From Methanobacteriota archaeon (GTDB lineage Archaea > Thermoplasmatota > Poseidoniia > Poseidoniales > Poseidoniaceae): 64,000 nucleotides of DNA. A program made the translations under genes and the position numbers. The stretch's first letter is position 1; every line of letters begins with the position of its first letter. The stretch covers positions 1 through 64,000 of the forward strand of contig JABJMO010000027.1 of the NCBI GenBank assembly GCA_018659375.1, given 5' to 3'. Of this stretch, positions 2,676 through 8,294 are shown one piece after another. The notes under the pieces were generated by a model. It did no database searches, was not told the DNA's origin, and was given only the letters and a program-made list of their open reading frames with translations.

Positions 2676-3950
2676 TCAATTAAATTGACGATAAATTCTT
2701 CTCAATTTAGTCGCCGAAGGAACATGAGTGTATGGGGTAATTTCAATTTGTACTGGCTGAAGATTCTTGGAGTTCCATAACTTATCAAATCCTGCCATTG
2801 AAAGGTCGGATAAACCTTCAGGTTTGAGTTGTATTTCGATTTGGTCTGGAGCCTTTTGGATGGCGATATAATCAGTAATTTCATCACTCATTTGCATTAT
2901 TGCTCGGCGAATCAAATCTGGCACTACTAACTCTGGTGTATCATCGACTCTAGTTAAGTGAAACATATCATCAGAACGACCCATAATCGCATCAATTACT
3001 TCCCGTTTATCACCACAAGGACATACTTTATTGGAAGTTACCAAAATATCATTGAGCCGGTAACGAATTATTGGTTGCGTTTTACGTTTAAAATCTGAGA
3101 TTATTGGATGATACCAGCCTTTTCCCTCATCGATCCATTCTTTTTGAATCACCATCAAATCTTCATTCAAATGTAATGTGCCGTGCTTGCAAGTAGCTGC
3201 AAGTTCTCCTTCAGTTGAAGAATAAAACTGGTGTAAAGTTAAGTCAAAATGCCGCTCAATTTTTGCTCGGTCAACATCTTCTAAGACTTCAGCAACTGAA
3301 ACCATTTTTCTCACCTTAATTGGAGAGTCAATATCAACAAAATAGCTCAACACACTTGGTGGACCCATCAGTATGTCAAGTTCATCCTTGATGATACTGT
3401 CATGTAATTCATCCAGCGGTTTCATTAAATCGTAAAAACTGAATTTAATTCGATTAGAACCAACTGACTCAAAGGTATTGGAATTAGCGCGTAAAATCAA
3501 CCCAATTTTGTAGCGTTCAAATATTGAACCGTCAAGACCTCTAGATAGCATGAAACCGGCCCATGAAGCCTGTTCTTGTTCACTGATGAAATGCATACCT
3601 CTTGAGCCGCTAGTGCCAGAAGAATAACCGATTGAATACGGGCCAATTTTGGGCGAAAAATCACGCTTTTTTTCAGCCTTATCGGCTAGTTGTTTGGCGT
3701 GATTCACATCTAGCCTAACCGTCAACAAATCAGCCAAGTTGTCCATCATAATCGATTTATCAATAAGTGGGAATTTGGCCCATTCATCATCTGATAGCCC
3801 TTCCCAGTGCTTGCCGTAAAACGGCGAATTTTTCCTGACAAATCTTACTTGTTGCTTCATTCCCTTGCGCTGTATTTTTTCAATACGTTGTCGGCTACGG
3901 AATTTCTTTGGAGTAACAAAGTAACGAAACAGAGTTCTAAGTTTACTCAT
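2676..3950 (-). CDS. PaaK/CapK (F390-synthetase-like) adenylate-forming enzyme; ORF track start 3995, preferred start 3950 (MSKLRTLF)
   Basis: GYSSGTSGSRGMHF P-loop, FYSSTEGELAATC, TQPIIRYRLNDI; ATGA overlap with upstream SDR stop supports start at 3950. Confidence 0.8.
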   Translation of the reverse strand: MSKLRTLFRYFVTPKKFRSRQRIEKIQRKGMKQQVRFVRKNSPFYGKHWEGLSDDEWAKFPLIDKSIMMDNLADLLTVRLDVNHAKQLADKAEKKRDFSPKIGPYSIGYSSGTSGSRGMHFISEQEQASWAGFMLSRGLDGSIFERYKIGLILRANSNTFESVGSNRIKFSFYDLMKPLDELHDSIIKDELDILMGPPSVLSYFVDIDSPIKVRKMVSVAEVLEDVDRAKIERHFDLTLHQFYSSTEGELAATCKHGTLHLNEDLMVIQKEWIDEGKGWYHPIISDFKRKTQPIIRYRLNDILVTSNKVCPCGDKREVIDAIMGRSDDMFHLTRVDDTPELVVPDLIRRAIMQMSDEITDYIAIQKAPDQIEIQLKPEGLSDLSMAGFDKLWNSKNLQPVQIEITPYTHVPSATKLRRIYRQFN

Positions 3951-4915
3951 TCCAACTCCTCCATACCTTGCTCGAAGGTTTTTATTGGCTGCCAACCAAG
4001 GGCTGCCTTAGCACCTGATATATCGAGTGTTAACGAGCCTGTGACCTGTCTTAGACCATATGGTGTCAGGGTTGGCTCATAGGGCTTACCCGGTATTATT
4101 GACGCTACAGCACTGACAAGATGAGCGAGGATGAAAATTGGCCAGTAAGGTAATTTACGCTGCTGAAAGTTCCCAGAAAATTTAGCGGTGTAGGACTGCA
4201 TAATCGAATTAAAAGTTCGTGAATCGCCATTAGAAATGTTGTAAAATTTACCTAAACTACTCTCCGGTGCCTCGATAGCAAGACAAACAGCATCAACGAA
4301 ATTGGACAAACAGGTGACATCGATAAGTCCCTTTCCCTCACCGATGGTCCGGTAACTATTCTTACCGATCAGTCGCGTTAATCGAGGCAGTAGCGTTTGG
4401 TCTCCAAGCCCAAATACCGCTCTTGGTCTAAGGCCTATCCACTGATGTTTTGGTTGTGATAAACAGAACAATTCAGCATCATACTTACTTGCTCCATAGT
4501 GGTGTTTTGGTCTATATTTTAGTTCGGGTGTTGCATCCGTATGCGGCTTGTCGTGAGTCATTCGGTCAAAAATTGAGGCAGAAGATATCATCACTATACG
4601 AGAAACTGAATTTTGTTGACCTGCCTTATAGACATTTTTGGTTCCTTCAACATTGGTTTGGAAAAATCGCTTTTTACTGCCAAACGGTGCTGCATAAGCT
4701 GCGCAGTGGATAATCACATCACAATTTATTAATGCTGTAGTCAACTCTGCTAAATTACCTATATCGCATCTTTTCATTACGTGATTTTGGTTTTGCATGG
4801 CGGTAATTTTTGCCTGATTTCTACCAATGCCGATAACTGAATGACCTGCTTCGCTAAGCCTGAGCATGATTGCCTTGCCAAGTGTACCAGTAGCACCTGT
4901 AACCGCTATTTTCAT
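3947..4915 (-). CDS. NAD-dependent epimerase/dehydratase, extended SDR (3-beta-HSD/OleD-like)
   Basis: MKIAVTGATGTLGKAIMLRL (GxxGxxG), YGASKYDAELF (YxxxK). Confidence 0.88.
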   Translation of the reverse strand: MKIAVTGATGTLGKAIMLRLSEAGHSVIGIGRNQAKITAMQNQNHVMKRCDIGNLAELTTALINCDVIIHCAAYAAPFGSKKRFFQTNVEGTKNVYKAGQQNSVSRIVMISSASIFDRMTHDKPHTDATPELKYRPKHHYGASKYDAELFCLSQPKHQWIGLRPRAVFGLGDQTLLPRLTRLIGKNSYRTIGEGKGLIDVTCLSNFVDAVCLAIEAPESSLGKFYNISNGDSRTFNSIMQSYTAKFSGNFQQRKLPYWPIFILAHLVSAVASIIPGKPYEPTLTPYGLRQVTGSLTLDISGAKAALGWQPIKTFEQGMEELE

Positions 4916-4927
4916 ACTTGCACCTCG

Positions 4928-6559
4928 TTATTTATGAGAAATATTTTTCCAGATTAAAATCATTAATGCCGGCCAAGAAATTGCTAGGAGCCAGGCCAGC
5001 CAAACCGGCAACAAAGGTGGACCGTCGACATCAACTGGAATTTCTGTAAAACTTGATTGACCATTAACTTCTAACCATACCTCTAATGTTTGGTTGCCAG
5101 AAAATGGGAAATTAACCTGTCCATTCCATATTGAATGATTATTTCTATCTTCGAAATTAGTCCGCATCCTAACAGTGTCTTTTTCTGTTGGATAAACCAG
5201 TTCAATCCATGCATTAGTAATATCACTAGTATCATTATTTGCCGGCAGGATTGATACCTCAGTTTCAATTAAGGCCTTTGGCGGCCAAATCATAAATTCA
5301 ACCCAGACATAAGTTTCATTGACATCAATAAGGAATCTCTTTGGCGCATCTAATCCTTCACCATCTTCGGATAAGTGAATTACATGACCACTTGCTAAGG
5401 GGGTGAAAATTAGCAGCAGGAAAACGCCTGCTACAGACATCTTTGCAGTAGGCGGAGATTTCTTGCCAAGAGTAATCATTTTGTCTACTGATAAACGTTC
5501 AATTGCGGCACTAAAACCTTGACTCAAAAAGATAAATCCACGCAATACAAGTACAGTAATTACAACTGATAGAATGGTATTAAACAACCCGATTTGCGAA
5601 GGAATATAATCGATGAAAGTCGGCAACCATACCGCATCAACAACAATTACTAGAGCAATAAGTCTGTTGGGGTTTTGTAACACTGAATAGCGTCTTGTTG
5701 CTAAAAGAATTGGCAATAATAGCCAAGGTAAACATTGTGCAGCCCAGACTGTATGAGGCGAACCGGGTCGGAAATAATGCTCACTGGTCATCATTGACTC
5801 GACTAGAAGCGGTACCACTGTAAGGAATAATAATTGCGATGCTAGTAGTAAACTGGATAAGGCTAGCGCCCCATTCTTACCAAGTAATCTGTCGGCTAAA
5901 GGTAAGAATATTATCAGTGAAGCACCAGCAAAAATGATGTGCAGCATGATTTGTAAATTGAAGATATTAAGGGACCAGACACGAGGGTCCAAGAAGTTGG
6001 CAAAGGCAAGATGAAAATGGTATACTAAGGCCCAAAGAGTCCCGGTGATTACTAAGTTAAGCCATTTAGGAGTCGCCTCTTTTAGTCGGTTTCTCATTTG
6101 TAATGCTAGGACAATTGTCGCTACTTCTACTAACATTCCACCAGCAAAAGTCCAGATATGTGGAGGAGTAATTATGGTTGTATCGACACCATAGGAGGTA
6201 TGCCAATAATCATCATATAATCCCCCAAAGACAAGGGTGATTAAGCCACATACCATCATCCATAGACTGGTTGGAGCAACAAATGGGCCAATAAAAAACC
6301 CTGCCTTCTCAGGGTTTTTTGAAACAAAACTATTCCACAAAATGTATGAAACAAGCATGATACTTGTTGGAACTATCCCGGCTAGAATCATTATGTGAGG
6401 TGGAGTAAATAATTCATCACGCCCAATATCGGTATGCCATTGAAGGTCAACTGCTAAGCCAAATCTAGCAATGATGTGGTACAAGCATAGTACTACCAAG
6501 AAGGCTAACAAGAAATTATCTTCCCTACTACGCTTTATTGTCATAATTAGAACACCCAC
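4928..6559 (-). CDS. Polytopic membrane protein with a C-terminal extracytoplasmic beta domain and final TM; unknown function
   Basis: Many hydrophobic segments; duplicated LQWHTDIGRDELFTPPHIMILAG / DYWHTSYGVDTTIITPPHIWTFAG; overlaps upstream gene. Confidence 0.8.
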   Translation of the reverse strand: MGVLIMTIKRSREDNFLLAFLVVLCLYHIIARFGLAVDLQWHTDIGRDELFTPPHIMILAGIVPTSIMLVSYILWNSFVSKNPEKAGFFIGPFVAPTSLWMMVCGLITLVFGGLYDDYWHTSYGVDTTIITPPHIWTFAGGMLVEVATIVLALQMRNRLKEATPKWLNLVITGTLWALVYHFHLAFANFLDPRVWSLNIFNLQIMLHIIFAGASLIIFLPLADRLLGKNGALALSSLLLASQLLFLTVVPLLVESMMTSEHYFRPGSPHTVWAAQCLPWLLLPILLATRRYSVLQNPNRLIALVIVVDAVWLPTFIDYIPSQIGLFNTILSVVITVLVLRGFIFLSQGFSAAIERLSVDKMITLGKKSPPTAKMSVAGVFLLLIFTPLASGHVIHLSEDGEGLDAPKRFLIDVNETYVWVEFMIWPPKALIETEVSILPANNDTSDITNAWIELVYPTEKDTVRMRTNFEDRNNHSIWNGQVNFPFSGNQTLEVWLEVNGQSSFTEIPVDVDGPPLLPVWLAWLLAISWPALMILIWKNISHK

Positions 6560-7260
6560 TTGGCAGTTGTTGACTTACCAGAGCGGTCTACTATACGATG
6601 TTCTAGTGTATCATTATGTTTGTTGATCAACTGCAAAAATTCATGCATGTGTTTCCCAGATAACCAGTTTTGATGACCTTGAAAGAAGTTACTGCTTGAC
6701 TGTTGTTCGAGAAATTCAACCGTGCCTGTTTTAACAAACCTATTTCGTTTAATACTTTGATCGAAATAGCCTGTTGTAGTTGTATTTGGAGTTAAATCAG
6801 AGTTGTCGTGAGTTATTGATTCACATTTAGGGCCGTCTCCCGATAGTCCAATTACCGCGACAACACAATACGACTCATATTCCCAATCACAATATTTCGT
6901 CGGACGATCATCTCCAATACACAGCAAGGCATAATCGGTTGAGAGAGCGGGTAATAAATCGGCAACTGATTGTATAGCAACGTGTGGACTGCAACTACCA
7001 TCAGTGACGTCAAATGCAAAACATGACTGGCTATCAATTCCAATCCCATGACAGTGGATATCGAGATCTCCTTGGATGTGAGTAGCAAATGCTGGCTCGG
7101 TTCTAAAGTGCTCTCTATATACACCACCATGCACTACTAACCCGATTTCTTCGGGCTTAATACCTGCATTACTGATAGCCTTTTTAGCCAGCTTTAGGGT
7201 GGATTTTAACAAACCGGTATATCCTATTTTCTTACTTTCCCAAGACAACATTACAACCAA
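6547..7260 (-). CDS. Truncated/degenerate beta-ketoacyl synthase III (thiolase-fold) partner protein
   Basis: Aligns by eye to the adjacent KASIII (KKAISNAGIKPEEIGLVVHGGVYREH.., EPAFATHIQGDL, FAFDVTDGSCSPHVA vs FDVSNACAGMLTG) but catalytic Cys position is shifted/replaced. Confidence 0.6.
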   Translation of the reverse strand: MVVMLSWESKKIGYTGLLKSTLKLAKKAISNAGIKPEEIGLVVHGGVYREHFRTEPAFATHIQGDLDIHCHGIGIDSQSCFAFDVTDGSCSPHVAIQSVADLLPALSTDYALLCIGDDRPTKYCDWEYESYCVVAVIGLSGDGPKCESITHDNSDLTPNTTTTGYFDQSIKRNRFVKTGTVEFLEQQSSSNFFQGHQNWLSGKHMHEFLQLINKHNDTLEHRIVDRSGKSTTAKWVF

Positions 7261-8294
7261 TTTTCCACCCCCATTGGGAGTTTAAAATGTACGGCTAAGA
7301 TTGCAAGACCTGAGCCAAATGAGACCAACAATGCTGTCTGGTCTGACTTTAGATAGCCGCTATTTTGAGAGATTTCGAGCTGAACACCGTGGGTAGTCGA
7401 TGCAGTGTTGGCCGTTTTTTCAGTATTATTGTGTAGAAAGTTGATTTCCCCCATCACTTCAATTGCTACTTTTGCCCCTTTTTTGACTGCCTTGGGAGTT
7501 GTTGGGTGAGAATAAGTATGATCTATTTCATCCCACTTGAGTTCCATATAATCAATTGACCTCTTAAGAAAATCTCCTAAATTGTCAATAATACCGTTTT
7601 GCAAATCCTTAGCTCTAGTTCTCATCTGTGGACCAGCATGTGATTTACAGGCTTGTCCGATACAATGCCTGTTGTATTGTGCCATAGTAAATGGCTCACT
7701 AAATCTTATTCTACCAGATTCGTTAGAAGGTCCAAGGATGTACGCGGCAGCTCCATCACCAACGGTTAGTGAAGCAATTGCTCGTGGGTGAAGATACAAA
7801 TTTCTTCTCTTGGCTTCACCAATGATAGGAGTAATGTGCTCCCCTGATACCACCAAAGCATACTTGCATTGTCCACTGCTAATTCTTGATTCGGCAATCA
7901 TCAATCCGGTTAACATCCCCGCACATGCATTAGAAACATCAAAGGTTTGTGCGTTGGTAATTTGCAATTCATTAGCAATTAAAGTGGCAAAACTTGGTGA
8001 TAAGTGTTGACGAAGTTTACCGTCCATCTTACTGACTGAACAATTAATTACCAAATCAATATCATCGGGTCCTATATCTATTCTTGAAAGAGCCTTTTTA
8101 GCGGCTCCCACGGCTAATTCGAAACTACCTTGGCCATTTGATACTTCACGATGGGCTAAGATTCCGGTTAAACGAACAAAATCTAGTGAACGCGGCAAAT
8201 CATCTGGTGATGCAAATGATGTTGTCGCTACTTTTGTGTCCGGTAGAAAGCCAGCAAAAGATAGCATCTGGGCGTGATTATCACTCCCTAACAT
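7251..8294 (-). CDS. 3-oxoacyl-ACP synthase III / OleA-like thiolase-fold condensing enzyme
   Basis: FDVSNACAGMLTGL (active Cys), HTYSHPTTPKAVKKG (His), TANTASTTHGVQLE (Asn region), LVSFGSGLAILAVHF. Confidence 0.85.
   Translation of the reverse strand: MLGSDNHAQMLSFAGFLPDTKVATTSFASPDDLPRSLDFVRLTGILAHREVSNGQGSFELAVGAAKKALSRIDIGPDDIDLVINCSVSKMDGKLRQHLSPSFATLIANELQITNAQTFDVSNACAGMLTGLMIAESRISSGQCKYALVVSGEHITPIIGEAKRRNLYLHPRAIASLTVGDGAAAYILGPSNESGRIRFSEPFTMAQYNRHCIGQACKSHAGPQMRTRAKDLQNGIIDNLGDFLKRSIDYMELKWDEIDHTYSHPTTPKAVKKGAKVAIEVMGEINFLHNNTEKTANTASTTHGVQLEISQNSGYLKSDQTALLVSFGSGLAILAVHFKLPMGVENWL

Follow-up and report, generated by a model that had tools for sequence, protein, structure and literature searches.

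Can an archaeon join two acyl chains head to head with the kind of condensing enzyme known from bacterial olefin and lipstatin biosynthesis? The question is raised by five genes, here called A, B, M, D and C, at positions 2676 to 8294 of a window of 64,000 nucleotides (positions 1 to 64,000 of contig JABJMO010000027.1), which represents one contig of a 1.9-Mb assembly (GCA_018659375.1). A preliminary description of this DNA took the host to be a likely archaeon, and the host is indeed a member of Candidatus Poseidoniales, its relatives being named Candidatus Poseidoniales or Poseidoniaceae (Marine Group II, MG-II). A survey of ole clusters found none in Archaea (PMC7158056), and Marine Group II, which has bacterial-like fatty acid genes, is central to the debate on the lipid divide (PMC7852524).

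We propose that the five genes are probably an OleA/LstAB-type biosynthetic operon of a marine group II archaeon, in which A and B would act together first, followed by D, C and M. The sequence itself shows the gene content, the conservation, the homology and the pattern of catalytic residues, whereas the activity, the substrates, the reaction of C and all that concerns the role of M are our inference. The preliminary description had recognized the logic of a beta-ketoacyl-ACP synthase III (KASIII) pair combined with an OleD-like reductase and an adenylating enzyme, and this logic is supported. Its comparison with the Ole pathway holds in outline, but the closest known counterparts are LstA, LstB and LstD of lipstatin biosynthesis, not the homodimeric OleA.

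Conservation of the Five-Gene Arrangement

The five open reading frames (ORFs) lie in the order A-B-M-D-C on the minus strand, from 8294 to 2676, and neighbours overlap or stand 2–12 bp apart; both the order and this close packing, including the ATGA at 3947–3950, agree with the preliminary description. When 85,462 species genomes were scanned with C, the archaeal loci obtained numbered 20; every one is from Poseidoniales, and they include a complete MG-II chromosome (CM001443.1, L035). The order A-B-M-D-C was kept in 15 of the 15 loci long enough to show five genes, and the 5 truncated loci are consistent with it. Since the order is kept in all sufficiently long loci, the five-gene arrangement is not due to chance, and the gene neighbourhood, for which a survey had been suggested earlier, is conserved. 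Comparison with the nearest relative (L012) gave ratios of nonsynonymous to synonymous substitution (dN/dS) of 0.06 for A, 0.09 for B, 0.07 for M, 0.13 for D and 0.07 for C; all five genes are under strong purifying selection.

Predicted Condensation by a Divided KASIII Pair

The operon contains two adjacent, phylogenetically distinct KASIII homologues. Searches with hidden Markov models (HMMs) matched A to PF08545 (1.6e-13), PF08541 (2.2e-6) and the FabH/OleA models (1e-34), and B, weakly KASIII-like by Pfam, to weak KASIII subfamily models only. The predicted structure of B has the KASIII fold (predicted template modelling score, pTM, 0.83), with PDB matches that include OleA, FabH and PqsC.

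The closest relatives of A found are Rhodococcus plasmid proteins (about 35% identity), and A is 28–32% identical to the protein encoded first in the lipstatin-type clusters that Streptomyces and Rhodococcus plasmids carry. In a 52-sequence tree, A, LstA and the Rhodococcus A proteins form one clade (99/95), apart from the KASIII proteins of a bacterial TIGR02304 cassette, which group with E. coli FabH (98/95); a role of A as a FabH enzyme initiating type II fatty acid synthesis (FAS-II) was ruled out by this placement. The profile of A scored 234–245 bits with Rhodococcus A, 171–183 with LstA and 93 with OleA. For B, the corresponding scores were 49–67 with Rhodococcus B, 45–54 with LstB and 24 with OleA, the exact place of its branch in the tree being unsure. 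Judged by homology, A is the counterpart of LstA in lipstatin biosynthesis and B probably that of LstB.

Concerning the catalytic residues, Glu117 of one OleA subunit is known to be the base in the active site of the partner subunit, and in nearly every OleA this Glu is followed by Pro (PMC7064751). LstA has the triad C128/H271/N305, and E60 of LstB is essential, as the E60A mutant is inactive and abolishes LstAB function (PMC12141560). In the archaeal proteins, the triad Cys-His-Asn is kept in all readable A, and the position of the OleA glutamate is occupied by Ser in 12 of 15 distinct A, by Glu in L019 and L041 and by Asp in L040, all three of which branch deeply; in LstA and Rhodococcus A the residue is Glu. 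The Glu-Pro pair of B (E55-P56) is invariant in 17 of 17 distinct archaeal B, and HMMER, unprompted, aligned the EPAFA of B with the LEPSTA of OleA. In the same 17 proteins, the nucleophile position is Ser, Thr, Ile or Asn and the His and Asn of the triad are missing; a Cys one residue past the nucleophile position is usual, and one member is without any.

The simplest account of this pattern is a heterodimer, in which the glutamate of A would face the dead site of B and could be lost freely, whereas A would depend on the glutamate of B. The division of triad and glutamate between the two proteins is the strongest single argument for such a heterodimer, and on its basis A and B look like an obligate LstAB-like heterodimer for non-decarboxylative acyl-acyl condensation. 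Cys124 of A would hold one acyl chain, and Glu55 of B would cross the interface as the base deprotonating the second acyl thioester, so that a head-to-head non-decarboxylative Claisen condensation would give an alpha-alkyl beta-keto acid. We consider condensation by A and B likely.

Predicted Reduction, Activation and Membrane Steps

D, an extended short-chain dehydrogenase/reductase (SDR), would reduce this product to an alpha-alkyl beta-hydroxy acid, a step that we regard as likely. The best curated model for D is OleD (7e-44), yet its score is 150 bits against a model cut-off of 580. D matches the SDRs of the bacterial TIGR02304 cassette at 1e-39 to 1e-70, a similarity at least as strong as that to OleD, and a tree of D leaves its placement among cassette SDR, OleD and LstD unsettled.

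C belongs to TIGR02304, "F390 synthetase-related" (5e-112; 374.9 bits against a curated cut-off of 251.9), and has the invariant ANL-type motifs SSGTSG, YSSTEGE, RYR.ND and GR.DD and K415 near the C-terminus. With good confidence, it is predicted to adenylate the carboxylate, which would lead either to beta-lactone closure, as with OleC and LstC, or to activation of the acid for transfer to another molecule. A beta-lactone as the outcome of its action is put forward tentatively; the product of the pathway would be a beta-lactone or an activated alpha-alkyl beta-hydroxy acid. The preliminary description had a PaaK-type enzyme replacing OleC: the PaaK-like adenylating character stands, but C belongs to TIGR02304, a family with a bacterial cassette of its own that is without the OleA-type glutamate, and so is not just a stand-in for OleC. 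When the literature was searched for "F390 synthetase-related protein" as a phrase, no paper came up.

M would act on the product at the membrane, either as a metal-dependent finishing enzyme or in transport or insertion. It has about 10 transmembrane helices, the last of them C-terminal, and repeats with invariant H-D-(G)-R-D...TPPH and D-D-x-W-H...D-T-T...TPPH; additional His and Asp residues are invariant, and the C-terminal beta-sandwich domain is opened by HxxH. HMM searches assigned M to no family, a sequence search against the PDB gave no match, and Foldseek gave nothing better than E 1.8e-3 and nothing from the viral library. Of the Foldseek matches, the sole sensible ones were weak and partial, linking the C-terminal domain to the copper proteins CrdA and FetP (E 0.02). 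As the models of M are moderate (predicted local distance difference test, pLDDT, 70), no mechanism is drawn from them. Distant relatives of M occur in other Thermoplasmatota (L097) and in actinobacteria, and the one in Streptomyces mirabilis, which has the same repeats and C-terminal domain, is flanked by genes for a cupredoxin-domain protein and for a heavy-metal P-type ATPase. Based on these neighbours and on the matches of the C-terminal domain, a role involving copper or another metal is our guess for M. In one relative (L013:6312–8083), M is split into two frames by a frameshift or an assembly error.

Possible Acyl Supply in the Host Genome

The preliminary description considered the substrate unclear on the grounds that archaea lack FAS-II. 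This objection is weakened, since the host's own genome encodes acyl-CoA dehydrogenases and a PfaA-like synthase with three acyl carrier protein (ACP) domains. The synthase, a KS-AT-ACPx3-KR protein of 2.5 thousand amino acids, is incomplete at a contig end (TIGR02813 2e-239, below cut-off) and adjoins a FabI-type reductase (genome G000, contig C65; L158:3–9509). A complete version in genome G002, next to a phosphopantetheinyl transferase, has 2941 amino acids and the domains KS-AT-ACPx3-KR-DH (TIGR02813 5e-252), and at L175:3305–13750 the synthase is flanked by a FabI-type reductase on one side and a phosphopantetheinyl transferase on the other. PfaA-like synthases occur in nearly all sampled Poseidoniaceae and in some members of the sister family, with a match in 85 of 146 genomes of the class.

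The Pfa synthase of Shewanella supplies OleA with acyl chains (PMC6463001). Given the PfaA-like synthase and the acyl-CoA dehydrogenases, it is plausible that acyl donors are available in the host; they may come from this synthase or from the acyl-CoAs of beta-oxidation. The presence of a system resembling polyunsaturated fatty acid (PUFA) synthase in archaea merits a study of its own.

Alternative Explanations

Several findings weigh against an OleA/LstAB-type operon as proposed here. C matched neither PF00501 nor the OleC models in HMM searches, whereas an LstC-type enzyme (L127) matches the OleC models at 3e-158 and LstC is also matched by PF00501; an identity of C as an OleC/LstC-type beta-lactone synthetase was ruled out on this comparison. 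Both D and C are at least as similar to the bacterial TIGR02304 cassette as to Ole/Lst proteins, and the branch of B in the tree is very long. No OleB-like hydrolase was seen in the operon, as the preliminary description had stated, or in its flanks, the rest of the genome not having been searched. Further, PfaA-like synthases occur in far more genomes than the operon does, which makes the link between the two non-specific.

Among the other explanations, the one that survives best is that the operon makes a mycolate-like alpha-alkyl beta-hydroxy acid, which C would activate as acyl-AMP or CoA ester for a polar lipid or surface molecule without any beta-lactone, with M as acceptor, flippase or transferase. 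We think this possible, although the odds are somewhat against it. The kinship of C with the PaaK and F390-synthetase families, which form acyl-AMP and then a CoA ester or an adenylylated product, and its lack of similarity to OleC agree with such a route, and the fatty-acid-hydroxylase-superfamily, glycosyltransferase or ATP-grasp/GNAT genes found upstream in some relatives would suit a decorated lipid. However, these extra upstream genes are missing from some members, and we know of no mycolate-like lipid from Poseidoniales.

It is unlikely that the operon is a divergent form of the bacterial cassette, with the same product and with FabH-like chemistry for A and B. That cassette, KASIII-(ATP-grasp)-SDR-MBL-TIGR02304-(GNAT), occurs in Bacillota, cyanobacteria and proteobacteria and has TIGR02304 as its final enzyme; MBL stands for a metallo-beta-lactamase-fold hydrolase. 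C is 35–46% identical to the TIGR02304 proteins of this cassette, D resembles its SDRs as described above, and cassette-like ATP-grasp and GNAT genes stand beside A in the deep loci L039 and L041. The cassette KASIII, however, clusters with FabH and lacks a Glu ahead of the Pro, whereas the archaeal A groups with LstA; plain membership in the cassette was ruled out for the KASIII part by this grouping and by the residue comparison. In addition, none of the archaeal loci has an MBL-fold hydrolase and all have B and M added, and a search of 14 bacterial cassette genomes found no M.

A PqsBC-type KASIII heterodimer, joining an aromatic or other starter activated by C as a CoA ester to a fatty acyl group, is very improbable. 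PqsBC is likewise a pair of an active and an inactive KASIII encoded with a ligase, and PqsC turns up among the weaker matches by profile and by fold, but the LstA/LstB likeness and the OleA-type residues fit better, and the operon contains no other partner gene of the Pseudomonas quinolone signal (PQS) pathway.

That A is the HMG-CoA synthase of the mevalonate pathway and the cluster part of ordinary isoprenoid lipid metabolism is hardly credible: A matches archaeal HMG-CoA synthase models weakly (8.5e-7; 28.5 bits against a family cut-off of 353) and FabH/OleA models far better, a separate HMG-CoA synthase is encoded elsewhere in the genome (G000:C71; PF01154 4e-19, PF08540 6e-16), the operon is missing from most relatives, and A stands with LstA in the tree and not with the mevalonate genes, the placement that the preliminary description had named as contrary to its view.

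Operon Layout and Neighbouring Genes

Table 1. Positions of the five genes and of selected sites in the window
Feature	Positions	Strand	Remarks
Gene A, LstA/OleA-type KASIII	7251..8294	-	347 aa; triad C124-H263-N296 intact; S99 at OleA Glu117 position
Gene B, LstB-type KASIII-fold partner	6547..7260	-	up to 237 aa; without catalytic triad; invariant Glu55-Pro56
Gene M, polytopic membrane protein	4928..6544	-	538 aa; two HxDxGRD...TPPH-type repeats, C-terminal beta-sandwich domain, last transmembrane helix
Gene D, OleD/LstD-like extended SDR	3947..4915	-	322 aa; TGxxGxxG and YxxxK motifs
Gene C, TIGR02304 (F390-synthetase-related, PaaK-like) adenylate-forming enzyme	2676..3950	-	424 aa
Codon of Cys124 of A, predicted nucleophile	7923..7925	-	
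Codon of Ser99 of A	7998..8000	-	OleA Glu117 position; Glu/Asp in deep-branching relatives
Codon of Glu55 (GAG) of B	7096..7098	-	aligned with OleA Glu117 and the LstB Glu-Pro glutamate E60
TAATG	7249..7253	-	A stop overlapping in-frame B ATG
M-D spacer	4916..4927	-	12 bp, with Shine-Dalgarno-like GAGGTG

A and B overlap, B starting at 7260 or at the alternative ATG 7251, which shares the TAATG with the stop of A. For M, the most likely start is ATG 6544, which lies two bases past the stop of B and is preferred to GTG 6559, and C starts at ATG 3950 within its overlap with D, TTG 3995 not being taken.

Of the 146 genomes sampled from the class, 10 have gene C, and these belong to one family and three genera. 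In many genomes of the genus, the operon adjoins the tauE gene that also neighbours it in the window; in other tauE genomes it is missing from the stretch seen, and in L016 its upstream neighbour differs from that in the window. Based on this evidence, the operon is a patchily present accessory unit, probably mobile or repeatedly lost. At L144 (G518:C188), A and B appear to be deleted: next to tauE stands no more than the final stretch of M, and then D. The operon would have been partly lost there in nature, unless the locus is an assembly join.

A fatty-acid-hydroxylase-superfamily gene lies directly upstream of A in four lineages (L013:3384–4556, L018:5370–6530, L017:1695–2786 and L043:4512–5660), and ATP-grasp and GNAT genes lie upstream of A in two deep archaeal loci (L039:3424–5741 and L041:3423–5739); both kinds are absent in the window. 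A glycosyltransferase gene was observed upstream of A in a complete MG-II genome (L016:3702–4748). Downstream of C, at 981–2545 of the window, are divergently arranged genes for an HxlR-type regulator and a zinc-type quinone oxidoreductase, a pair that neither L013 nor L016 has beside the operon.

Comparison with Known Systems

Limited literature searches, with subscription papers outside their scope, found no description of this operon, which is apparently the first LstA/LstB-type acyl-acyl joining operon in Archaea. It would place this chemistry in one of the most abundant archaeal groups of the surface ocean and offers a compact test case in which the halves of one active site are parted almost cleanly between two genes. 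It also combines an activating enzyme that does not belong to the OleC family with a membrane protein whose family has no known function, and it gives a foothold on the product of the widespread, uncharacterised bacterial TIGR02304 cassette. A wider proposal, which we offer as a speculation with the odds well against it, is that Poseidoniales make an undescribed class of head-to-head lipids, either a beta-lactone or an alpha-alkyl beta-hydroxy acid with decorations, from Pfa-synthase chains, with TIGR02304 as a non-OleC activator of the carboxylate and M as a new metal-dependent membrane finishing enzyme.

Lipstatin-type plasmid clusters encode a KASIII, a second small KASIII-like protein, a fatty acid CoA ligase, an SDR, a non-ribosomal peptide synthetase (NRPS) and a formyltransferase; their gene order is the lst layout. 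Like lstABCD(EF) of Streptomyces, the archaeal operon has an adjacent KASIII pair with the same division of catalytic residues, together with an SDR and an adenylating enzyme. The genes for LstA and LstB are adjacent (PMC12141560). The archaeal operon differs in having TIGR02304 in place of LstC, no NRPS or formyltransferase, M in addition, an archaeal host, and the order A-B-M-D-C in contrast to A-B-C-D.

With oleABCD, which makes long-chain olefins in Xanthomonas and Shewanella, the operon shares an OleA-type condensing enzyme with a predicted cross-subunit glutamate, an OleD-like reductase and a predicted ATP-dependent activation; it differs in its predicted heterodimer in place of a homodimer, in a C that is not OleC and in having no OleB in the operon. 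Because no OleC-type enzyme stands in the place of C, the operon is not a full member of the ole/lst pathway. The KASIII pair of Rhodococcus plasmids (L125 and L126) provides the closest relatives found for both A and B, with overlapping A and B genes, but, unlike the archaeal operon, has no D, C or M alongside. This LstAB-like pair (L125:8926–10897 and L126:8944–10906) has no reductase or ligase nearby and lies among universal stress protein, trehalose and wax ester synthase genes, a setting of the stress or dormancy type.

The bacterial TIGR02304 cassette is widespread and seemingly unnamed (L020–L027, L047–L065, L067, L076 and L082); on an E. coli plasmid (L025), genes for PAP2, sterol desaturase and acyl-CoA desaturase come after it. 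The archaeal operon shares with it related C and D proteins, the ATP-grasp and GNAT genes of some archaeal loci and, in other archaeal loci, a sterol-desaturase-superfamily gene as in the E. coli plasmid. The cassette differs in its FabH-like KASIII without the glutamate, its MBL hydrolase and its lack of B and M. The archaeal operon thus looks like a hybrid, in which an LstAB pair stands for the FabH-like KASIII of the cassette, with no MBL gene and with M in addition.

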